From a virus: DNA of 31,017 nt. Where the stretch lies: positions 1-31,017 of IMG/VR virus record IMGVR_UViG_3300047562_002170, one strand, 5' to 3'. The translations under genes and the position numbers were made by a program. The notes under the pieces are model-generated. The model saw only the letters and a program-made list of their open reading frames with translations. It was not told where the DNA came from and did no database searches. Shown in pieces: positions 6,428 to 31,017 of this stretch (the first letter of the stretch is position 1; every line of letters begins with the position of its first letter).

Positions 6428-6438
6428 GGGGAATGACA

Positions 6439-6996
6439 GTGCCTAAAAAGAAAACAAATCATTATATTGATAACAAGAAATTTTATGGTGAAATGATACG
6501 TTTCCATAATGCCTGTCAAAAAGCAAAAGAAGAAGGCGAAGAACGCCCACGTATACCAGAATATGTAGGCGAATGTATTATGCTTATTGCACAAAGACTT
6601 TCGACTCGACCTAATTTTATTGGATATTCATATCGAGAAGAAATGATTGGTGACGGTATTGAAAACTGTTTGGCGTATATTCACAATTTCAATCCTGATA
6701 AATCAAATAATCCTTTTGCGTATTTTACTCAAATCATTTATTATGCATTTTTGCGTAGAATACAAAAAGAAAAGAAACAAATGTATATTAAACACAAGAG
6801 TTTTGAAAATAGTATGGTTATGAATAATCTTGTTGATATGGCACCAGAAGACCAAACTCAATTCAATGCCGTATACATTCATGTATCTGAAAAATTAGAT
6901 GATCTTATAGAGAAATTTGAAGCGCCTAAACCTCAAAAGAAAGTAGAAAAAAAAGGCATTGAAAAATTTATAAAGGATGATCCAGATGAGAAATAA
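6439..6996 (+). CDS. 55: Late-promoter sigma factor gp55
   Basis: gp55 is the phage sigma factor that directs host RNA polymerase to TATAAATA late promoters, working with gp33 and the gp45 clamp. Conserved blocks are YVGECIMLIAQRLSTRPNF, REEMIGDGIENCL and NPFAYFTQIIYYAFLRRIQ, the gp55 equivalents of sigma region 2. I prefer GTG 6439 as start because AAGGGG lies 7 nt before it. The in-frame ATG 6433 sits only one base after that site. The late boxes in this window are its expected targets. The lysine-rich C-terminus is where the clamp-binding tail should lie. Confidence 0.93.
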   Translation: MPKKKTNHYIDNKKFYGEMIRFHNACQKAKEEGEERPRIPEYVGECIMLIAQRLSTRPNFIGYSYREEMIGDGIENCLAYIHNFNPDKSNNPFAYFTQIIYYAFLRRIQKEKKQMYIKHKSFENSMVMNNLVDMAPEDQTQFNAVYIHVSEKLDDLIEKFEAPKPQKKVEKKGIEKFIKDDPDEK

Positions 6997-21972: not shown

Positions 21973-22049
21973 GGTCCCGTAGCTCAGCTGGATAGAGCAC
22001 GTGCCTTCTAAGCATGGGGTCAGAGGTTCGAGTCCTCTCGGGATCGCCA
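21973..22049 (+). tRNA. tRNA-Arg(TCT)
   Basis: A complete cloverleaf is seen: acceptor GGTCCCG/CGGGATC, D stem GCTC/GAGC, anticodon loop CTTCTAA (anticodon TCT, reads AGA), T stem AGAGG/CCTCT, discriminator G and encoded CCA. AGA is favoured in AT-rich phage genes. Confidence 0.95.
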
Positions 22050-22077
22050 TTATGGTGTTGCTACCTAATAAGCACGC

Positions 22078-22099
22078 GAGAGATTATGGTTAGTCTCTC
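22078..22099 (+). other. Hairpin between tRNA-Arg and the next small gene
   Basis: GAGAGA (22078-22083) pairs with TCTCTC (22094-22099), extendable inward to 9 pairs with a 4-nt loop. No T-run follows. It may mark the 3' end of tRNA processing or only be a stable leader stem. Confidence 0.45.
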
Positions 22100-22126
22100 A
22101 TTCACCCTCATCTAAGGATATAGATT

Positions 22127-22288
22127 ATGACACTTTTTCTTTTCGGACTAGTTATTTTTCTTTTATTTGTTTATCTTTGCATTAAAGATATGGAACGTGA
22201 AACAACGTCGCTTAGATCGGGCACCTTGTGGGCTCTTACCGGGTTTTGGGCATATGGATTGCTAGACACACTTGTTAGAGCAATATGA
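22127..22288 (+). CDS. Small membrane protein, 53 residues
   Basis: It starts MTLFLFGLVIFLLFVYLCI, a clear transmembrane helix, and a second hydrophobic stretch (GTLWALTGFWAYGLLDTL) ends it, with a charged loop between. Two-helix topology in the inner membrane is likely. The ribosome site is AAGGA, somewhat upstream. Its stop overlaps the next start (ATGA). Such phage mini-proteins often alter host membranes, but nothing here shows how. Confidence 0.6.
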   Translation: MTLFLFGLVIFLLFVYLCIKDMERETTSLRSGTLWALTGFWAYGLLDTLVRAI

Positions 22289-22524
22289 CGCCGCAAGAAA
22301 TATCTGATCATAAAATGAGATGGATGCCCGGTCACGAAGTGATCGTGCATTCAGATTTACGTGATCACGCCAAAGATTGGTGTAAAACTAAACTTAAAAT
22401 GTGGGAATATAAAATTGTACAATGGACTCATCCGTATGCTTTTACGTATCGATTCGAACATGAGCATGATGCAAAAGAATTTGCGCAAGAATTCAAAAGC
22501 TGGGTTAATGTAGGAATCGATTAA
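22285..22524 (+). CDS. Hypothetical 79-residue protein in the tRNA region
   Basis: It is rich in His, Trp and charged residues (MRWMPGHEVIVHSDLRDHAKDW; FEHEHDAKEFAQEFKSW). It looks like a small alpha/beta domain. Coupled to the membrane protein upstream and followed by tRNA-Leu after 14 nt. No recognised family. Confidence 0.65.
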   Translation: MTPQEISDHKMRWMPGHEVIVHSDLRDHAKDWCKTKLKMWEYKIVQWTHPYAFTYRFEHEHDAKEFAQEFKSWVNVGID

Positions 22525-22538
22525 GAGTACCGCTCCAT

Positions 22539-22621
22539 GGGCACGTGGCGAAATCGGTAAACGCAACGGACTTAAAATTCGTCGGGAAACCTTGCGGGTT
22601 CGAGTCCCGCCGTGCCTACCA
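22539..22621 (+). tRNA. tRNA-Leu(TAA)
   Basis: Acceptor GGGCACG/CGTGCCT, anticodon loop CTTAAAA (anticodon TAA), a long variable arm as expected for Leu, T stem GCGGG/CCCGC, discriminator A and encoded CCA. It reads UUA, common in this AT-rich genome. Confidence 0.93.
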
Positions 22622-22627
22622 GTTTAA

Positions 22628-22703
22628 GGTCCCTTAGTTCAGTAGGTAGAACAACGGACTTTTAATCCGTGTGTCGCTGGTTCAAGTCCAGCAGGGATCA
22701 CCA
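22628..22703 (+). tRNA. tRNA-Lys(TTT)
   Basis: Acceptor GGTCCCT/AGGGATC, D stem GTTC/GAAC, anticodon stem ACGGA/TCCGT with loop CTTTTAA (anticodon TTT), T stem GCTGG/CCAGC, discriminator A, encoded CCA. It starts 6 nt after tRNA-Leu. Confidence 0.95.
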
Positions 22704-22716
22704 AATTAAAAAGTAG

Positions 22717-22742
22717 GCCGGTATAGCTCTTTATAGAGAGCA
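22717..22742 (+). pseudogene. 5' fragment of tRNA-Thr (acceptor and D arm)
   Basis: GCCGGTATAGCTC (22717-22729) equals the first 13 bases of the intact tRNA-Thr at 23107. The D stem is closed by GAGC (22738-22741) with a changed loop, and the A at position 26 is kept. Then the sequence departs into a late promoter. It therefore forms a direct repeat, 390 bp apart, that brackets the endonuclease gene. An alternative reading is a weak hairpin terminator followed by TTTTT. Confidence 0.65.
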
Positions 22743-22749
22743 ACGTTTT

Positions 22750-22757
22750 TATAAATA
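22750..22757 (+). promoter_or_regulatory. Late promoter of the endonuclease VII-like gene
   Basis: A perfect TATAAATA box lies 20 nt before ATG 22778, leaving room for a short leader with a GGAGG ribosome site (22768-22772). T4 gene 49 is likewise served by a late promoter. Confidence 0.75.
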
Positions 22758-22777
22758 GAATAAAAGCGGAGGCTATT

Positions 22778-23106
22778 ATGAAGAACTGTAAACATTGTGG
22801 AATTGAATTAACACCAGAAGTAAAACATGAAGGACTGTCATGTAAAACTTGTAGAAACGGATTGGCACGATATGGATTGAATAGAAATCAGCAAAAACAA
22901 TTGCTGGAGTCTCAAAATCATAAATGTGCGCTGTGTGAAGATACTGTAGAATTGCATACCGGTAATAACTGGAATGGTGTTATAGATCATGACCACGAAA
23001 CAAATAAAGTAAGAGGCATTCTTTGTGGATATTGTAATGTTGCTTTGGGCAAATTAGAAGGCAACAAATTAAACAATTTCGCGAAAAATGTTTCTACATA
23101 TATAAA

Positions 23107-23116
<10 letters not shown>
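22778..23116 (+). CDS. Recombination endonuclease VII-like (His-Me finger) nuclease
   Basis: T4 endonuclease VII (gp49) cuts branched DNA before packaging. This 112-residue protein (gp49: 157) has the nuclease core: Cys50 and Cys53, the VIDHDHETNKVRG active-site segment (Asp70-His73) and Cys83/Cys86, which hold a zinc ion in the family. An added N-terminal CKHC...CKTC pair (4-25) suggests a second zinc finger. The last three codons and stop are the first 10 bases of tRNA-Thr. It may be the phage's resolvase or a free-standing homing nuclease of the same family; size and position favour the latter. Confidence 0.82.
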
Positions 23117-23181
<65 letters not shown>

Positions 23182-23197
23182 TATAAAAGAGGATGAT

Positions 23198-23383
23198 ATG
23201 AGCGAGAATAGTAATTCGTCTGTAAAAGTGTTGTCGGCTGCTATTGTTGGTATTGCCACAGTCGGAGTTGCAGCTTATGCTGGTTATAAGACGTATAAAC
23301 AAATGAAAGATATAGATTTAAATAATATCTTTGATGATCTTAATGAAACATTTTATAACGATCTACCTAAAAAAGAAACGTAA
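23198..23383 (+). CDS. Small membrane-anchored protein, 61 residues
   Basis: A hydrophobic stretch (VLSAAIVGIATVGVAAYAGY, residues about 10-29) is followed by a charged, acidic tail. It lies between tRNA-Thr and tRNA-Asn with an AGAGGATGAT ribosome region before ATG 23198. No recognised family; single-pass membrane topology is likely. Confidence 0.6.
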   Translation: MSENSNSSVKVLSAAIVGIATVGVAAYAGYKTYKQMKDIDLNNIFDDLNETFYNDLPKKET

Positions 23384-23391
23384 CTAGTTAT

Positions 23392-23466
23392 TCCCCGATA
23401 GCTCAGCGGTAGAGCAGACGACTGTTAATCGTCCGGTCGGTGGTTCGAATCCATCTCGGGGAGCCA
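23392..23466 (+). tRNA. tRNA-Asn(GTT)
   Basis: Acceptor TCCCCGA/TCGGGGA, D stem GCTC/GAGC, anticodon stem GACGA/TCGTC with loop CTGTTAA (anticodon GTT), T stem GGTGG/CCATC, discriminator G, encoded CCA. Confidence 0.95.
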
Positions 23467-23486
23467 TTTTAATAGTGGAGGTAACA

Positions 23487-23819
23487 GTGAAGAAAGCATT
23501 AGTCCTACTTATTGCCCTAATTGGTACAGCGGCATCAGCAACCATTTGGACCGGTAAAACAAGATATGTGAATCCTGTTACTGTCAATATAGTAGAACAT
23601 CCAAATATATGGTCTCTAAGGTCTGCAGCGATTTTTTGGGCACCAAGTTTAAATGCGGAAGTATTAGCTGGGTTTTCTTATACACAACAGAATGGAACGT
23701 GTGTAATTCATATCATAGATCCTGAGGTTGACTATCAACCAGAGATTATTGGCCATGAATTTGCGCATTGTGCATACGGATCCTTTCATGAAAAAAATAA
23801 TGCATATAAAGGAAGTTAG
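23487..23819 (+). CDS. Secreted metalloprotease-like protein (HEFAH)
   Basis: The 110-residue protein has an N-terminal signal peptide (KKALVLLIALIGTAASA) and a zinc-protease motif HEFAH at 90-94, with a further His at 101 (GHEFAHCAYGSFHE). This suggests a small periplasmic zincin; total size is minimal for a protease, so activity is uncertain. GTG 23487 is chosen because GGAGG ends 5 nt before it; the earlier GTG 23475 overlaps that site. It ends 2 nt before isocitrate lyase, so both are co-transcribed. A lysis or envelope role is possible. Confidence 0.65.
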   Translation: MKKALVLLIALIGTAASATIWTGKTRYVNPVTVNIVEHPNIWSLRSAAIFWAPSLNAEVLAGFSYTQQNGTCVIHIIDPEVDYQPEIIGHEFAHCAYGSFHEKNNAYKGS

Positions 23820-23821
23820 TT

Positions 23822-25054
23822 ATGGGCGAGAAGCGCAATTACAATCTAGTCGATACGATGAAAAAACTGCAGGGTTCGTGGTTTGTTGAGCATACTAGAG
23901 CAAAACGAGGGGCTGCTGATCTAAGGGATCTACTCACCCGTGAAAAACCTGTTCGTACATTCGGAGCGTACAATGGTCAACAAGCGGTTCAGCATGTAAA
24001 GGCTGGATTAGAAGCAATCTATGTTTCCGGTTGGCAGGTAGCGGCCGCCCACAATTCAACACAACAAACATATCCCGATCAGAGTCTCTATGCTGTTGAC
24101 TCTGTGCCTAATGCGGTTCGCTCAATCCAGAATGCTTTCCGTAGGCAAGATCAGATTCAAGTTGTGGAAGGGATGTCACATAAAGATCCTGATTATCGGT
24201 TCTGGGGTAATGTCCCTATCATTGCTGATGCTGAAGCAGGTTTTGGTGGGGCGTTGAATGCTTATGAGCTTACTCGTAGTTTGATTGAGGCAGGTGCTGC
24301 TGCAGTACACTTCGAAGATCAATTGGCAGCAGAAAAGAAATGTGGCCATCTTGGTGGTAAGGTCCTCATTCCGACTTCACAAGCAATTCGTAACCTCAAT
24401 GCAGCACGACTCGCTTCAGACGTAGAGCGTACCAATACCGTAATCATTGCTCGTACCGATGCTGAAGCTGCAAGACTATTGCTGTCAGATGTTGATGATG
24501 TCGATAAGAAGTTTCTCACTGGTAAGAGGACCGAAGAAGGTTTCTATGAAATTACTGGTGGTTTGGAAATGGGCTGTGAGCGTGGTCAAGCATTTGCTGA
24601 ATACGCCGACCTAGTCTGGTGTGAAACATCTAAGCCATGCCTCAAGGAAGCCAAGCGATTTGCCGATGCAGTTCGTGGTGCCGTTCCAGACCAACTACTA
24701 GCATACAACTGCTCACCTTCGTTCAATTGGAGACAGCATCTTCCGTCAGATACAGAGCTTGCAGAGTTTCAAACAGAGCTTGGTAAGATGGGATACAAGT
24801 TCCAGTTTATCACTCTTGCTGGATTCCATTCAACAAACTATGCGGTGTTTGATTTTGCTAAACAGTATGCCCAGGATGGTATGCTTGCATATTCTAGATT
24901 GCAAGAAAAAGAGTTTGCAGCTCTTAGCGAAGGATTCACATCAGTTAAGCACCAGCGTGAAGTTGGGGTCGGATACTTCGATGCAATTTCTCAGGCTGTA
25001 GGAGCTAGTTCGGTTGCTGCTCTAAAAGATTCTACAGAATCTGAACAATTCTAA
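23822..25054 (+). CDS. aceA: Isocitrate lyase
   Basis: Isocitrate lyase splits isocitrate into glyoxylate and succinate, the entry of the glyoxylate shunt. The 410-residue protein (E. coli AceA: 434) keeps the conserved blocks: YVSGWQVAAAHN, IIADAEAGFGG (metal site), the catalytic KKCGHLGGK with Cys174, IIARTDAEAA, LVWCETSKP, NCSPSFNW, and a C-terminal ESEQF like AceA's. No truncation or frameshift is visible, so activity is expected. GGAAG precedes ATG 23822. It is a clear auxiliary metabolic gene in phage DNA. Methylisocitrate lyase is less likely given the AceA-like motifs. A strong terminator follows. Confidence 0.95.
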   Translation: MGEKRNYNLVDTMKKLQGSWFVEHTRAKRGAADLRDLLTREKPVRTFGAYNGQQAVQHVKAGLEAIYVSGWQVAAAHNSTQQTYPDQSLYAVDSVPNAVRSIQNAFRRQDQIQVVEGMSHKDPDYRFWGNVPIIADAEAGFGGALNAYELTRSLIEAGAAAVHFEDQLAAEKKCGHLGGKVLIPTSQAIRNLNAARLASDVERTNTVIIARTDAEAARLLLSDVDDVDKKFLTGKRTEEGFYEITGGLEMGCERGQAFAEYADLVWCETSKPCLKEAKRFADAVRGAVPDQLLAYNCSPSFNWRQHLPSDTELAEFQTELGKMGYKFQFITLAGFHSTNYAVFDFAKQYAQDGMLAYSRLQEKEFAALSEGFTSVKHQREVGVGYFDAISQAVGASSVAALKDSTESEQF

Positions 25055-25078
25055 TACTCTAGACAATTTAATAAATTA

Positions 25079-25100
25079 GGGGCCCACGGGCCCCTTTTTT
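25079..25100 (+). terminator. Rho-independent terminator after isocitrate lyase
   Basis: GGGGCC (25079-25084) pairs with GGCCCC (25089-25094) around CACG, followed by six T. It insulates the isocitrate lyase transcript from the curli operon. Confidence 0.92.
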
Positions 25101-25107
25101 ATAAATA
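25100..25107 (+). promoter_or_regulatory. Late promoter of the curli/cyclase operon
   Basis: A perfect TATAAATA shares its first T with the terminator T-run. Start of transcription would be near 25113, only about 2 nt before ATG 25115, so the first gene would be nearly leaderless. The following genes of the operon have their own ribosome sites. Confidence 0.7.
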
Positions 25108-25114
25108 CACGTGT

Positions 25115-25402
25115 ATGGATTACAATGTTATTTTTCAATTGATTGCTGACGTGGGGTTTCCCATTGCTGCCGCATTGGTCGGTGGTGTCTTTGTATATTT
25201 TGTTATCAACTACATTCTTGAGAGTGTGGTTAAAGCTATTAAGGGTATGCAAGGTATTATCATCGGACTTGATAATCGCGTGAAGACTATGAACCATGAT
25301 ATTATTCGCGTTGACGCTGTGGTTAGTTCTGCACTCGGTTTGAAACCCGATCTGGATCGTATTGCTCGCGCGGATGGTAAGAACGACGCGCGGAAGGACT
25401 AA
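25115..25402 (+). CDS. Membrane coiled-coil protein A (holin/BhlA-like layout)
   Basis: The 95-residue protein has one N-terminal membrane helix (GFPIAAALVGGVFVYFVINY, residues about 14-33) and a helical tail with heptad pattern (LDNRVKTMNHDIIRVDAVV). It has no Shine-Dalgarno before ATG 25115 and starts just after a late promoter. The next gene is a paralogue: both share GFPI, FVYF and a RV...D.IR motif. The layout is that of small holin-like or bacteriocin-associated (BhlA/UviB) proteins, so lysis or pore assembly is possible. Function is not established. Confidence 0.6.
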   Translation: MDYNVIFQLIADVGFPIAAALVGGVFVYFVINYILESVVKAIKGMQGIIIGLDNRVKTMNHDIIRVDAVVSSALGLKPDLDRIARADGKNDARKD

Positions 25403-25654
25403 ATGGATCCACAACAAATTGCTGAACTTATACAGCAGTATGGTTTTCCAATTGTCGCCTCAGTAGGCCTTGGATATTTTGTTTATTTCATCTATAAGTT
25501 CGTTACCGACAAATTGATGCCCTTAATTGGTGAGACCAATGTCATTTTGATAGATCTCATTGATCGCGTTCGTATGCTTGATAACGATTTGATTAGATTA
25601 CAGCAGAAGGTATCTGTGCTATTGCAGGTTAAGGAAGAAAAAAATGAAGATTAG
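25403..25654 (+). CDS. Membrane coiled-coil protein B, paralogue of the gene before it
   Basis: The 83-residue protein has a membrane helix (GFPIVASVGLGYFVYFIYKF) and a coiled-coil tail (LIDRVRMLDNDLIRLQQKV). It begins immediately after the upstream stop. The order of motifs matches the 95-residue neighbour, so the pair arose by tandem duplication. A hetero-oligomer in the inner membrane is a reasonable guess. Confidence 0.6.
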   Translation: MDPQQIAELIQQYGFPIVASVGLGYFVYFIYKFVTDKLMPLIGETNVILIDLIDRVRMLDNDLIRLQQKVSVLLQVKEEKNED

Positions 25655-25790
25655 AATGAAGTTAGAGCTGCTGAAGATCTTCACTTTTGAATTCGATTTA
25701 GACACATATAAAGGTAAGAACGATGAAGAGACTATTGATAGTGATTCCGCTGATCCTGGCGACACCAGCGATGGCTCAGTACAATCGTGA
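25644..25790 (+). CDS. Possible 48-residue overlapping small protein
   Basis: An open frame with AAGGAAG upstream runs MKIRMKLELLKIFTFEFDLD and then an acidic Asp/Ser-rich tail. It overlaps the preceding gene by 11 nt and the start of csgF by 68 nt. It could be a real coupled mini-gene or a leader that feeds ribosomes into csgF. Low certainty. Confidence 0.3.
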   Translation: MKIRMKLELLKIFTFEFDLDTYKGKNDEETIDSDSADPGDTSDGSVQS

Positions 25791-26163
25791 TTTTCAGTTT
25801 AAGAACCCATCGTTCAGTGGACAGAATGCTTCTGCCCATTGGTTGACGATTGAGAACCAGGAGTTTACACGTAAGCAGGAAATTAGAGAGAAGATCGAGG
25901 AACAACTTGAGGAAGCTGCAAGAGAAGAGAAGAATTCCTTTCTCAATAGATTCCTTAACAACCTACAATCAAGAATCTATTCAAGGCTTGCTGCCCAGTT
26001 AACGGACAATTTGTTTTCACAAGAAGGGCAAAGTGGGTCATTTGAGTTAGAAGGAAATACTATATCATATGCTGAAGATGGTGACGAACTTGTATTGACG
26101 ATCGTACAGGCCGATGGCTCTGTCACTGAGATCAGAATACCGTTATCAGGATTCAGTTTTTAA
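25723..26163 (+). CDS. csgF: Curli assembly factor CsgF
   Basis: CsgF binds the CsgG pore and anchors curli subunits at the cell surface. The 146-residue protein has a signal peptide cut after ATPAMA (18 residues), and the mature N-terminus QYNRDFQFKNPSFSGQN matches the CsgF segment (FQFRNPNFGGN in E. coli) that inserts into CsgG. A charged helical middle (65-85) and a beta-strand end follow, as in CsgF. Length is close to E. coli CsgF (138). It starts inside a short overlapping frame, and csgG begins at its stop codon. Confidence 0.9.
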   Translation: MKRLLIVIPLILATPAMAQYNRDFQFKNPSFSGQNASAHWLTIENQEFTRKQEIREKIEEQLEEAAREEKNSFLNRFLNNLQSRIYSRLAAQLTDNLFSQEGQSGSFELEGNTISYAEDGDELVLTIVQADGSVTEIRIPLSGFSF

Positions 26164-26948
26164 TGAAACATTTTATTTTGTTATTGACTATATTATTAGG
26201 AGGATGTACAATTGGCGTAGCAGGGTCAAAACAATGGCATACACCCGATGCTCCAAGACTAGTTACACCATCCGATGTAACAGGTTTGATTTCATTACAA
26301 CCACCATATAGAAGACCGGTCGTTGCTGTATATGAATTTCCCGATCTAACGGGACAAAGAAATGAAGGCGGAGCTACTTCGAGTCTATCAACAGCAGTAA
26401 CTCAAGGCGGGACTGCTATTCTGATAGATGCTCTAAAGAATGCAGGTGGTGGCACGTGGTTTACGGTCGTAGAAAGAAATAGAATTGATAATCTTGCTAA
26501 GGAAAGGCAGATTGTCAGACAACAAAGAGATGAGTACGAAGGAGATAATGCTACAAAACTTCAACCGATGCTTTTCGCTGGGCTAATAGTTGAAGGTGGT
26601 ATCGTAGGCTACGATACGAGTTTAATGACAGGAGGTGCTGGTGCTAGGTATCTCGGAATTGGCGGTACTCATCAATATAAGAAAGACCAAGTTATAGTTT
26701 CGTTAAGAGCAGTTTCGACAAATACAGGAGAAGTTATTCTTAACGTTCAAATATCGAAGACGATTTATTCTTATGGAAATGATCTTTCGGTATTTAAGTT
26801 TGTTGATGCTGGCACAGACCTAGTGGAATTTGAAACTGGTATGACAGAAAACGAAGCAAACACAATGGCAGTAAAGATGGCGATAGAGGCTGCAGTCGTG
26901 GAAATGATTAAGCAAGGAATAGAAAGGGATATTTGGAGGTACAAATGA
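26163..26948 (+). CDS. csgG: Curli secretion channel lipoprotein CsgG
   Basis: CsgG is the nine-subunit outer-membrane pore that exports curli subunits (type VIII secretion). The 261-residue protein (E. coli: 277) has a lipoprotein signal with lipobox LGGC, Cys15. Family blocks follow: VVAVYEFPDLTGQ, STAVTQGGTAILIDAL, WFTVVERNRIDNLAKERQI, VEGGIVGYDTSLMTGGAGA, and YLGIGG in the pore-forming region. The end IKQGIERDIWRYK matches the CsgG C-terminal helix. It starts at the csgF stop (TAATG) and ends overlapping the curlin-like gene (ATGA). Confidence 0.95.
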   Translation: MKHFILLLTILLGGCTIGVAGSKQWHTPDAPRLVTPSDVTGLISLQPPYRRPVVAVYEFPDLTGQRNEGGATSSLSTAVTQGGTAILIDALKNAGGGTWFTVVERNRIDNLAKERQIVRQQRDEYEGDNATKLQPMLFAGLIVEGGIVGYDTSLMTGGAGARYLGIGGTHQYKKDQVIVSLRAVSTNTGEVILNVQISKTIYSYGNDLSVFKFVDAGTDLVEFETGMTENEANTMAVKMAIEAAVVEMIKQGIERDIWRYK

Positions 26949-27640
26949 AACTAATCAAGAATTTCTTGGTTATGCTTACATTATTGATTCCAGCGATTGC
27001 ATATGGACAGTCAACAACAAACTCGATCTACATTGAGCAGATCGGCGATGGTTCAACGATAACTATCGAACAAACGGGGAACACTAATACGATCGGTGAT
27101 ACCGTTTTGGATATTCCATTTGATCTTAATGGGGCATCACAAAACATTACGGTAACTCAAGATGGCAACTCTAACTCACTTGATGGAGCGATTAAAGGAG
27201 CAAACATTACTGCTAGCATCGACACAACAGGTGATACAAACGATCTTGATTTCGATGTCGGGGCAACTGCGGCCAGTGGATCAACACTTGACTTTGATGT
27301 AATAGGCAGTGGCAACGATGTCGACTTTACGCAAGGATCGTTAAACTCTGCTACCAATGCTGATGTCACTGTTGGTATCACTGGTGACTTTAACACGTTT
27401 GATTCCACCATCGAAACAGATGATGTTACAAATACATTTGCTGTTACCGGCGATTCAAATGACATGACTATTGTTCAAGATGGTTATGCTGGTAAGAACA
27501 TTGATATGGATCTTACTGGATCAACAAATACCGTAACAGTTAATCAGAAGAGCACGTTGAATGTTGATTCAATTAATCTCACGTCTACGACGAGCAACAG
27601 TACTATTAGCATTAATCAGTGCGACTCCACTGGTTGCTAA
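26945..27640 (+). CDS. Curlin-repeat (CsgA/CsgB-like) secreted protein
   Basis: The 231-residue protein has a signal peptide (ending IAYGQS) and then about eight imperfect repeats of roughly 22-26 residues. Each has alternating Ile/Val/Leu strands and a Gly-[Asp/Ser/Asn]-x-Asn turn, for example ITIEQTGNTNTI, ITVTQDGNSNSL and VTVNQKST. The Gln and Asn ladder of curlin is best kept in the first and last repeats; middle repeats use Asp instead. A Cys pair ends the protein (NQCDSTGC). GGAGG supports ATG 26945; the TTG 26933 upstream is not used. Beside csgG it should be the exported fibre or a cap. Confidence 0.82.
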   Translation: MKLIKNFLVMLTLLIPAIAYGQSTTNSIYIEQIGDGSTITIEQTGNTNTIGDTVLDIPFDLNGASQNITVTQDGNSNSLDGAIKGANITASIDTTGDTNDLDFDVGATAASGSTLDFDVIGSGNDVDFTQGSLNSATNADVTVGITGDFNTFDSTIETDDVTNTFAVTGDSNDMTIVQDGYAGKNIDMDLTGSTNTVTVNQKSTLNVDSINLTSTTSNSTISINQCDSTGC

Positions 27641-28634
27641 TGATATTGGTTCGGTAACGCAATCAAAGGGGACTGGCGAAGTAGTTCGTAATCAAACGAA
27701 GTACAACGTCAGGCCCCAGTTACCTATTCGTCAAAACGATACAGTAAAGACGGGCAATGGTCGTGTCAGGATTACGTTTGTCGACGATTCAACTGTTAAT
27801 GTTACCGAACAGTCTCGTTTAGTTATCGATGACTTTGTTTACAATGGTAACCCATCTGCATCGAGGATGGCACTTCGGTTCGCATCCGGGACCGCTAGAT
27901 TTACATCTGGTTCAGGAAGAATTGCCAAACCGAACATAGCTCTCAGAACACCTTCTGCAACAATTGCCGTTCGTGGAACAGACTTTACAACGACAGTCGA
28001 TGAGTTCGGTAAGAGCCTAATTATTCTACTACCATCTGATGATGGAACGGTCGGAGAGATCACGGTTTCTAACGCAGCAGGAATTGTTGTCCTCAATCAA
28101 GCATTTCAAGCAACTCTTGTCGAGACGTTTGATTCTCGACCATCGCAACCTCTAATACTCAATCTTTCATTGGATATGATCGATAACATGATCATTGTTA
28201 ATCCACCTGAAGAAATAAAAGAGTATGAAATAGCAGATTCAAGAACTAATATTCTTGATCTCTCAGAACTCGATATAGATTACCTAGAATTTAAGGATCT
28301 TGAAAAAGATGATCTAATCTTTGATCAATTGGATAAGGATCTATTGAGTGTAAACTTCTTGGAAGACTATCTTGATGATGGTGGCGGTGATTTGTCCGAT
28401 TCAGTAGATGGGGTGTCGATTGTAGGAACGACTTTTGGTTATAATGAAAGTACGCAGATCTATGCAATCATTGCACAGGATTCTATAAATATCTCAAGGT
28501 ATGTTGGTGGCACAATAAGCATTAACTTGTCTAAAGATGAAGGAAAGAATATCCTTCTTAATCAAAATAAAATTATATACGATTTAAAGGTAAATGGCGG
28601 TGGATCAGAAATTATCATCACGCAATCTGACTAA
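27561..28634 (+). CDS. Secreted FecR-domain protein
   Basis: The 357-residue protein begins with a signal peptide (RRATVLLALISATPLVA) that is encoded in the last 80 nt of the curlin gene, in another frame. No later in-frame start would keep the signal. A FecR-type domain spans about 40-175: VKTGNGRVRITFVDDSTVNV, then LRTPSATIAVRGTDFTTTV. An acidic linker follows, and a C-terminal beta-rich tail (IYDLKVNGGGSEIIITQSD) slightly recalls a curlin strand. FecR proteins sense or scaffold in the periplasm. Here it may link the exported fibre to the cyclase encoded next, overlapping by 41 nt. Confidence 0.85.
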   Translation: MLIQLISRLRRATVLLALISATPLVANDIGSVTQSKGTGEVVRNQTKYNVRPQLPIRQNDTVKTGNGRVRITFVDDSTVNVTEQSRLVIDDFVYNGNPSASRMALRFASGTARFTSGSGRIAKPNIALRTPSATIAVRGTDFTTTVDEFGKSLIILLPSDDGTVGEITVSNAAGIVVLNQAFQATLVETFDSRPSQPLILNLSLDMIDNMIIVNPPEEIKEYEIADSRTNILDLSELDIDYLEFKDLEKDDLIFDQLDKDLLSVNFLEDYLDDGGGDLSDSVDGVSIVGTTFGYNESTQIYAIIAQDSINISRYVGGTISINLSKDEGKNILLNQNKIIYDLKVNGGGSEIIITQSD

Positions 28635-30669
28635 GATACTCCTATCCCCATGGATGGCATTGCTTACGTTTGCAATTCTATTATCTGTTAAGTTTGCAGA
28701 TCCGTATCTCGTAGAGTCAACAAGGTTAACATCCTATGATTATATTATGCTTGATGAAAAAATTGAAGCTGACGGTATTGTTGTTGCAAATATCGGTGAA
28801 AAGGCAATTGAAAAATACGGCCAATATCCATTTCCGCGAGAAGTATATTCAGAGATCATAAAAGATCTATACGATAATGGTGCATATCTGGTCACATCAA
28901 CTATTATGTTTCCCGAATATGATCGATTCGGTGGTGATGGTGCGCTGGAACAAACTTTATCAGAATATCCTATCGTCCTTAGCCAATCGGTTTTAACCGA
29001 ATGCGGCACTAATCCCAATACAGAAATTCGCCGGACCGGTGTTGCTGTAGTCGGGGATGGTCAGCCGACCGACTTTCTACCAAACTATCCCTGTGTCCTT
29101 GATAACATTCCCATTCTTCAAGAAGCTGCAGTTGGAGTTGGTGTAACATCGACATTGCCGGAGAGTGATGGGGTCGTGAGAAGAGTTCCTCTGTTAGCGA
29201 CTTCAAACGGTGAGTACTATCCTGCATTTGCACTTGAAGTTCTCCGAGTTCTAGCAGGAGATCCTTCATATCAAGCGAAGATAAATCAGTCTGGTGTGGA
29301 AGCATTGCGTATTCCTCAATTTGATACTATAAACACTGATCCTTATGGAAGGATCTTTATTAATCCTAATTATTCATTCAAGACGGTAGAGATAGGAGAT
29401 AATCTTCCAGATCTAACTGGCAGCACTGTGATTCTTGGTGTTTCTGCAACGGGAGTTGTAAACCCAGTTCCAACAGCTTCGGGGGCCCAAACCCCGCATC
29501 AAATTCAGGCCAGTCTACTTCAAACTCTATTTGATGGCAATTCTGCATCGATTCCGCAATGGGTAGATTTATTAGATTTGATTGCTTTTGTGATTCTTTC
29601 TCTGACATTAATAGTTCTTTCCAGGTTTAAATATTCAATAATTTTTATTGGAATAGTTTTTGCTGGCTATTTGTATTTGCCAGTGTATCTATTTGTACAA
29701 AATAATATTCTTTTTGATGTTAGTTTTAATTTACTAGCTGGACTATTAATCTACCTTCATATTTATACCGCTAAATATATCTCTGAATATTTACAGAAAC
29801 AGCAGATCAAGAAACAGTTTGGAACGTATCTGTCTCCTGCTATGGTCGAGAAGCTGCAGAAGAATCCTGAACTGTTAAAGCTAGGTGGTGAGTCGCGTGA
29901 GCTGTCGATCATGTTTACAGACGTGCGGGGATTCACAACGATCTCCGAACACTACGGCGAAGACGTTCAAGGTCTGACTAAGATAATGAATCGTTACATG
30001 ACAGCTATGACAAAAACAATTATTGAAAACGAAGGAACTATAGATAAGTATATAGGCGACGCGCAGATGGCGTTTTGGAATGCACCGTTGAATGACCAAC
30101 ATCATGCTTTACATTCAGTACAAACGGGGTTAACAATGCTAAAAGACTTGGAGACATTTAATGAAGAGATTGCAAGAGAAGGTATACCTGCTTTTGGCAT
30201 GGGTCTTGGTATTAACACTGACACTGTTGTGGTTGGTAACATGGGTTCTGATCAACGTTTCGATTACACTTGTTTGGGGGATGGAGTTAACCTTGCAGCG
30301 CGTCTTGAAGGTCAAACAAAAAGTTATGGCGTCAAAATTATTATCGGGCCTAAGACAGCCGGATATATCAAAGACATTTACCAAGTTATTCAGCTCGACC
30401 TTATAGCTGTTAAAGGTAAAACAAAGCCAGTAAAGATCTATACTGTTGTTGAAAACTGGGATAACATTGGACACACTCAACACAAAAAGTTCCTAGCACT
30501 ATATCGTCAAGGTCACTTTGATGTAGCTAAGAGATATGCAATAGAGTTAAAACAATCATTCCAGGGTCAGCTGTTCGAATACTATACAATGATGATAGAA
30601 CGGATCGACCATCTCAAAATCGAAAAGCCAAAAGATTGGGATGGAGTTTATAGAGCTACATCAAAATAA
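28594..30669 (+). CDS. CHASE2-domain class III adenylate cyclase
   Basis: The 691-residue inner-membrane protein has one N-terminal helix (about 17-35), a large periplasmic CHASE2 sensor (40-320), three helices (about 325-393) and a cytoplasmic cyclase domain (435-610). The cyclase has metal aspartates Asp443 (FTDVRGFT) and Asp489 (YIGDAQMAFW), Lys485 and Thr559 as likely adenine-recognising residues (CyaC type), and Asn566/Arg570 (VNLAARLE) for the transition state. All key residues are present, so it should make cAMP. AAAGG precedes ATG 28594. A guanylate cyclase is less likely because of the Lys/Thr pair. Confidence 0.93.
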   Translation: MAVDQKLSSRNLTKILLSPWMALLTFAILLSVKFADPYLVESTRLTSYDYIMLDEKIEADGIVVANIGEKAIEKYGQYPFPREVYSEIIKDLYDNGAYLVTSTIMFPEYDRFGGDGALEQTLSEYPIVLSQSVLTECGTNPNTEIRRTGVAVVGDGQPTDFLPNYPCVLDNIPILQEAAVGVGVTSTLPESDGVVRRVPLLATSNGEYYPAFALEVLRVLAGDPSYQAKINQSGVEALRIPQFDTINTDPYGRIFINPNYSFKTVEIGDNLPDLTGSTVILGVSATGVVNPVPTASGAQTPHQIQASLLQTLFDGNSASIPQWVDLLDLIAFVILSLTLIVLSRFKYSIIFIGIVFAGYLYLPVYLFVQNNILFDVSFNLLAGLLIYLHIYTAKYISEYLQKQQIKKQFGTYLSPAMVEKLQKNPELLKLGGESRELSIMFTDVRGFTTISEHYGEDVQGLTKIMNRYMTAMTKTIIENEGTIDKYIGDAQMAFWNAPLNDQHHALHSVQTGLTMLKDLETFNEEIAREGIPAFGMGLGINTDTVVVGNMGSDQRFDYTCLGDGVNLAARLEGQTKSYGVKIIIGPKTAGYIKDIYQVIQLDLIAVKGKTKPVKIYTVVENWDNIGHTQHKKFLALYRQGHFDVAKRYAIELKQSFQGQLFEYYTMMIERIDHLKIEKPKDWDGVYRATSK

Positions 30670-30672
30670 CTG

Positions 30673-30701
30673 TGTACATTTAATGAAAAGTAGTGTAGGA
30701 T
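30673..30701 (+). promoter_or_regulatory. Promoter, TGTACA-N17-TAGGAT
   Basis: TGTACA (30673-30678) and TAGGAT (30696-30701) are 17 bp apart, just after the cyclase stop. The hexamers, spacing and leader (GGATAACCTATAATG) repeat those at 11183-11223, so the two transcripts begin almost alike. Confidence 0.72.
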
Positions 30702-30724
30702 AACCTATAATGTGCAAAGGAAAT

Positions 30725-31017
30725 ATGATGCAGATCTCTGTTGAAGGTTTTTCAAAGAAAAAAACAGACGAACTCGTAGAGGCAGTTCAGTTTTTTGCCA
30801 AACAGCTGATGCACGGTAAGATGGTTAATAATCTTACAATCGATATTGAGAAGTGCCACCGCTTGGATGTGATGGGCGAATGTATCAATGAAGATGATAC
30901 GAAGAATCCTCGTTGGTTTACGATCAACCTTCGTGATAGCAAAGACGATGAAGACATTGTCAAGACACTAGCTCATGAAATGGTTCATGTTAAGCAATAT
31001 GCCAAGAACGAATTGGC
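30725..31017 (+). CDS. HExxH zinc-metalloprotein (3' partial)
   Basis: The first 97 residues are visible; the frame is open to the window end. HEMVHVKQ (84-91) is a zinc-protease type motif, as in SprT-like and related small peptidases. The part before it has ITIDIEK-like strands and FTINLRDSK. AAAGG supports ATG 30725 or 30728; ATG 30710 is in frame but lies in the leader. The first gene after a TGTACA promoter, it is probably early. The rest of the motif set cannot be seen. Confidence 0.7.
   Translation, partial: MMQISVEGFSKKKTDELVEAVQFFAKQLMHGKMVNNLTIDIEKCHRLDVMGECINEDDTKNPRWFTINLRDSKDDEDIVKTLAHEMVHVKQYAKNEL

Follow-up and report, generated by a model that had tools for sequence, protein, structure and literature searches.

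What does a phage gain by ending a curli-type fibre-export operon with a membrane-bound adenylate cyclase? The question is raised by the 3' part of a 31,017-nucleotide stretch of viral DNA (positions 1 to 31,017 of IMG/VR record IMGVR_UViG_3300047562_002170; hereafter, the window). The window belongs to a T4-like phage with a capsid protein like those of HTVC008M, Melnitz and cyanomyoviruses, and it carries a curli-type cassette that closes with a FecR-domain protein and the cyclase, with its genes intact. On the + strand, two small genes that we call hol1 and hol2 are followed by csgF (25723-26163; PF10614, with a signal peptide), csgG (26163-26948; the outer-membrane secretion pore, PF03783, with lipobox LLGGC), a gene for a curlin-like fibre subunit with PF07012 repeats and a signal peptide (26933-27640), the FecR gene (27561-28634, 357 residues) and, at the 3' end, the cyclase gene (28594-30669, 691 residues). 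The last two open reading frames (ORFs) overlap by 41 bp, as a first-pass annotation of the window had placed them. All genes of the cassette are under purifying selection, with median pairwise ratios of nonsynonymous to synonymous substitution (dN/dS) of 0.04-0.14. Our favoured reading, to which we give a probability of about 0.45, is that this is a discrete, probably late fibre-export cassette whose inner-membrane CHASE2-cyclase reports on export through cyclic AMP (cAMP).

The first-pass annotation described the last gene as encoding a full-length class III cyclase in which no catalytic residue is missing, with a periplasmic CHASE2 sensor, and both Pfam and our alignment agree. Pfam assigns CHASE2 to residues 29-336 (E=2e-29) and Guanylate_cyc to residues 435-617 (E=2e-17), and the active site is complete, with the metal-binding Asp443 and Asp489 (numbered correctly in that annotation), Lys485, Thr559, Asn566 and Arg570. 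These six residues are all present in 79 of 83 viral cyclases; the other four are two truncated sequences and the variant enzymes of Melnitz and HTVC008M. By its residue pattern (Lys485, Thr559), the enzyme is of the adenylate type, and we are highly confident in the prediction that it produces cAMP. Among solved structures, bacterial class III adenylate cyclases come closest. Hydropathy and an AlphaFold model, of low quality over the catalytic domain and used for topology only, place one transmembrane helix before the periplasmic CHASE2 domain and three between it and the cytoplasmic cyclase domain. Across relatives, the catalytic domain is near-invariant and far more conserved than CHASE2. 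Sinorhizobium CyaD1, which has the same domain architecture, makes cAMP constitutively when its CHASE2 domain is removed, showing that CHASE2 gates that enzyme (PMC5498481), and by analogy CHASE2 may gate the phage cyclase as well. Separately, short ORFs 5' of csgF in four phage loci show similarity to the C-terminal extension of the cyclase alone, at about profile positions 573-683 (L224 17058-17417, L225 16772-17188, L226 5715-6068 and L234 5473-5826; L-numbers label the related viral loci compared with the window).

The cyclase and the fibre genes travel together. Relatives are encoded in at least 592 matched IMG/VR stretches, and we counted neighbors in distinct loci with enough flank; kinship was left uncorrected, so that these counts describe the sample and not independent events. 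Each of the 54 cyclase genes whose flank is long enough is accompanied by csgG, csgF, curlin and FecR genes on its own strand. Conversely, FecR is present at all 63 csgG loci, and the cyclase accompanies csgG on the same strand in 62 of them and lies nearby on the opposite strand in the remaining one (L237). The pairing of a CHASE2-cyclase with FecR and CsgG, for which the first-pass annotation had proposed a search of viral databases, recurs across these loci, and its assignment of the cyclase and FecR to the curli operon holds wherever flank allows.

The same genes also disappear together. Two phages (L191 and L194) have an empty site, in which the small genes are followed by a 161-bp stretch and then by the usual downstream gene. 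The start of this stretch resembles the junction between the small genes and csgF, and its end resembles the junction between the cyclase and the downstream gene, a metallopeptidase-like gene (phrog_10499) that lies at 30710-31017 on the + strand of the window, is cut by the window end and bounds the empty site on the right. Two others (L171 4734-5120 and L173 10614-11000) hold an in-frame fusion of the first ~47 residues of CsgF, comprising the signal peptide and N-terminus, to the last ~80 residues of the cyclase, which by its sequence is the scar of a cassette deletion. L184 and L186 retain decayed remnants of the cassette. In all six loci, hol1 and hol2 are still present. We conclude from these junctions and scars that csgF, csgG, curlin, FecR and cyclase are gained and lost as one unit, with csgF as its first gene and the cyclase as its last, a feature that had not been described.

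The first-pass annotation had also allowed that the contig might be a bacterial chimera. We rule this out, as dozens of independent phage contigs share the gene order and two of them are close relatives of the window. In L261, the isocitrate lyase gene that precedes the operon, the small genes, csgF and csgG are 95-97% identical to the window at the DNA level. In L246, the csgG-curlin-FecR segment is ~96% identical and is followed by a cyclase that is 72% identical; identity drops sharply to 60-70% where the cyclase gene begins (L246 ~position 2200, window ~28600), indicating that the cyclase allele in L246 was replaced by recombination at the FecR-cyclase junction.

The FecR-domain protein begins with a signal peptide and has a Pfam FecR domain (E=4e-11), and the fold of its N-terminal domain resembles that of an antifreeze protein's cell-surface anchoring domain (PDB 5ix9; Foldseek E=1.7e-3, profile search E=0.02). 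Its C-terminal domain (residues 279-355) is beta-rich and confidently modelled. Neither a FecI sigma factor nor a FecA receptor is among the ten proteins encoded at 23475-31015, and the FecI-FecR-FecA system has only the FecR domain in common with the cassette. For FecR, the co-variation with csgG and curlin in 41 distinct loci is 0.76-0.77 overall and 0.83-0.90 within FecR types. Its correlation with CHASE2 is weak overall (0.21 in the same 41 loci) and reaches 0.58 and 0.82 within the two FecR types; given these within-type values, we dropped the overall figure as evidence against pairing. Cyclases that are ~70% identical adjoin FecR types that share just 30-43% identity, so a role for FecR as the direct partner of CHASE2 is unsupported, though both co-vary within types. 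From these sequences, a single kind of cyclase is maintained alongside either kind of FecR, and we claim compatibility across types and nothing further.

A similar pairing occurs in bacteria. In alphaproteobacteria such as Bradyrhizobium and Afipia, the closest cyclases (33-36% identity) often lie 3' of genes for exported FecR-domain proteins, as in the phages. Unlike in the phages, FecR is often fused to immunoglobulin- or cadherin-like repeats, giving several proteins of 1400-2300 residues, and csgF, csgG and curlin are absent within ~10 kb. No curli genes were found near bacterial FecR-cyclase pairs at any of 80 loci, nor CsgF in any of 23 of those genomes; CsgF occurs in 4 of 385 alphaproteobacterial genomes, and in those four neither FecR nor the cyclase lies within 10 kb of csgF. 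This agrees with the published statement that FecR and adenylate cyclase are not part of bacterial curli operons (PMC9599517). The arrangement of the bacterial genes points to an anchored surface structure beside a CHASE2-cyclase as a recurring theme, and suggests that FecR may anchor surface structures in phage and bacterial settings alike. A cluster of FecR, CHASE2-cyclase, phosphodiesterase and tetratricopeptide repeat genes in Campylobacterota (PMC9239204) shares the FecR gene beside the cyclase; the paper mentions no curli genes, and the phage cassette, unlike that cluster, has neither a phosphodiesterase nor a tetratricopeptide repeat gene.

That such bacterial pairs exist also fits an account in which the fibres alone are selected, for capture of siblings or exclusion of superinfecting phages, and the FecR-cyclase pair regulates the fibres or hitchhiked out of a bacterial adhesin-cyclase operon. 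Fibre functions have been proposed in print (PMC7029224, PMC9599517), and the allele swap in L246 speaks for this account as well. A passenger would hardly keep a near-invariant catalytic domain at a dN/dS of 0.14, and the cyclase is never lost alone where the flank allows this to be seen. We consider this account unlikely.

When the cassette is expressed bears on what it reports. An exact T4 late promoter motif, TATAAATA, lies at 25100-25107 on the + strand, 15 nt 5' of the ATG of hol1 and directly 3' of a terminator-like hairpin (GGGGCCCACGGGCCCC, 25079-25098, + strand) that is followed by a T run and lies 3' of the isocitrate lyase gene. T4 late promoters consist of a -10-like element only (PMC7892883). 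Among 51 distinct close relatives, the motif starts exactly 13 nt 5' of the hol1 ATG in 23 and lies no more than 70 nt 5' of it in 38, compared with 1 and 36, respectively, of 1188 other ORFs in the same loci. Several phages whose small genes face the other way have their own copy of TATAAATA before csgF. In T4, late transcription starts at a fixed position relative to the motif; with this geometry, the predicted start in the window falls at the start codon or 2-3 nt 5' of it, so the mRNA would be near-leaderless. The position of the motif argues that the cassette is probably switched on late in infection.

The genes directly behind this promoter offer a second account of the module. hol1 (25115-25402, + strand, 95 residues) and hol2 (25403-25654, + strand, 83 residues) encode paralogues with one transmembrane helix each and a conserved tail, and hol1 is the most conserved gene of the region (median dN/dS 0.04, the lowest). 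All 26 small-gene sequences match phrog_18771, and 20 of the 26 weakly match the holin family phrog_4898 (best E=1.9e-5), so that a holin-like function is a lead, not a proof. A late-type promoter before two holin-like genes, together with the published hypothesis that CsgG is a pinholin (PMC9004378), would suit a lysis-timing module in which the curli pore acts with the holin-like proteins to depolarise or permeabilise the envelope as infection ends, leaving the cyclase to report the damage. The small genes persist where curli, FecR and cyclase have been deleted, so the cassette is not required for lysis, and the curlin and FecR genes are under selection although a bare pore would need neither. 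We consider lysis timing an improbable purpose for the module.

Besides a report of envelope state or fibre export through cAMP that changes host CRP-type regulation, the first-pass annotation suggested another role, in which phage cAMP tunes host metabolism, perhaps together with isocitrate lyase. The lyase gene (23822-25054) is complete with its KKCGH motif and sits just 5' of the cassette in the window and in L261, and the cyclase is intact; both points favor general host reprogramming. Isocitrate lyase has 147 relatives in IMG/VR, with KKCGH kept in 78 of 78 ORFs checked, and aceA-type genes were reported from viromes in 2013 (PMC4053976). Within 4 kb of 79 other viral isocitrate lyase loci, curli genes appear in L261 alone, and two more loci have a fragment of the cyclase end at the contig edge. 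Because the enzyme rarely adjoins the cassette and the hairpin separates the two, it should not be tied to cAMP, and the suggested link is not a general one. The late-type promoter argues against an early metabolic take-over, and the cyclase always travels with curli; we regard host reprogramming as very unlikely. The lyase can also escape annotation: in Phage C48C1 (OQ984149.1, 44175-45416) it is listed merely as hypothetical.

A search of 17 larger phage records found no CRP-type cAMP receptor (PF00027) above the cut-off, so any receptor would be the host's. CyaD1, in comparison, signals to Clr in a bacterium, and we found no phage counterpart. In principle, the cyclic nucleotide could serve as a decoy for, or modulate, nucleotide-based anti-phage defences of the host. 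That the phage is predicted to make one is the sole point in its favor; a periplasmic sensor and late expression are ill suited to early counter-defence, and we give this idea almost no weight.

The first-pass annotation knew of no studied phage example, which the literature contradicts. Pelagimyophage curli genes have been on record since 2020 (PMC7029224), FecR and adenylate cyclase were reported within the curli modules of podo- and myophages in 2022 (PMC9599517), and the cyclase is annotated in HTVC008M and Melnitz, whose cassettes (gp011-gp019 and gp97-gp104, respectively) are syntenic with that of the window. The published type VIII secretion module of pelagiphages runs from small gene(s) through CsgF, CsgG, curlin, FecR and an optional second curlin to the cyclase; CHASE2 is not named there. 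The window has CsgF, CsgG and curlin in this order with FecR and cyclase downstream, and differs in lacking a second curlin and in having isocitrate lyase upstream. The upstream genes, reported to be always present in podophage modules, were called histidine kinases (PMC9599517), whereas the window has the two single-helix proteins. We detected no kinase domain in any of the 26 small-gene sequences searched, and homologues of hol1 and hol2 occupy the same place in HTVC008M and Melnitz; these observations place the published label in doubt, and we find it not supported for the small upstream genes. The phage is a distant member of the group, its cyclase being 40% identical to those of HTVC008M and Melnitz. 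At the adenine-specifying threonine, HTVC008M has serine; Melnitz (L082, 8974-11025) has aspartate there and serine in place of the transition-state asparagine, a degenerate motif that may leave its cyclase weak or inactive.

We return to the reading that the cyclase reports on fibre export. Judging by their families, CsgG and CsgF would form an outer-membrane pore exporting the curlin-like protein in the infected cell. The FecR-domain protein would reside in the periplasm and, instead of acting in iron regulation, would anchor the fibre or pore or be its gate partner. The inner-membrane CHASE2-cyclase would sense the periplasmic state or that of fibre export and make cytoplasmic cAMP for a receptor of the host, since the phages appear to encode no cAMP receptor of their own. 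It is possible, if somewhat doubtful, that the whole is an export-to-cytoplasm reporter in which FecR-anchored amyloid-like fibres are sensed and a late cAMP signal is sent to the host, built as one replaceable unit from bacterial FecR-adhesin/cyclase pairs that were re-coupled to curli.

Several observations weigh against export reporting. The cyclase is on the opposite strand in a few phages (L226, L227, L234 and L237), and the L246 breakpoint, together with the co-variation values, shows that phages can swap the cyclase independently of the csgG-curlin-FecR block, and vice versa. The fold match for FecR is of moderate strength at the values given above. The exact promoter motif is absent from most distant relatives, HTVC008M and Melnitz among them, which limits the late-promoter interpretation to the clade of the window. 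Finally, the Melnitz cyclase carries the asparagine-to-serine change at its transition-state position, and Melnitz cultures showed no clumping (PMC9004378).

Other features of the window and its relatives complete the description. A 187-residue ORF (6433-6996, + strand), read by eye from its position and sequence, encodes a putative T4 gp55-type late sigma factor, the kind of factor that reads a T4-type late promoter. The variable region just 5' of isocitrate lyase contains five tRNA genes at 21973-23466 (Arg, Leu, Lys, Thr and Asn). Rfam identified only tRNAs and no riboswitch like the one reported near the Melnitz cassette. The cassette also occurs on very large viral contigs, L050 (258859 bp), L068 (328068 bp) and L075 (360683 bp), which are possibly jumbo phages or joined assemblies.

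Our computational analysis adds to the published module its loss as a unit, the probable late promoter with its predicted near-leaderless mRNA, the holin-like rather than kinase nature of its upstream genes and the bacterial FecR-adhesin pairs. Aquatic T4-like phages commonly carry the cassette. If a lytic phage does couple second-messenger synthesis to fibre export, it would be controlling its infected cell in an unusual manner. Handles on the purpose of a module that has been known since 2020-2022 come from the deletion derivatives, the bacterial FecR-adhesin/cyclase relatives and the late-type promoter.

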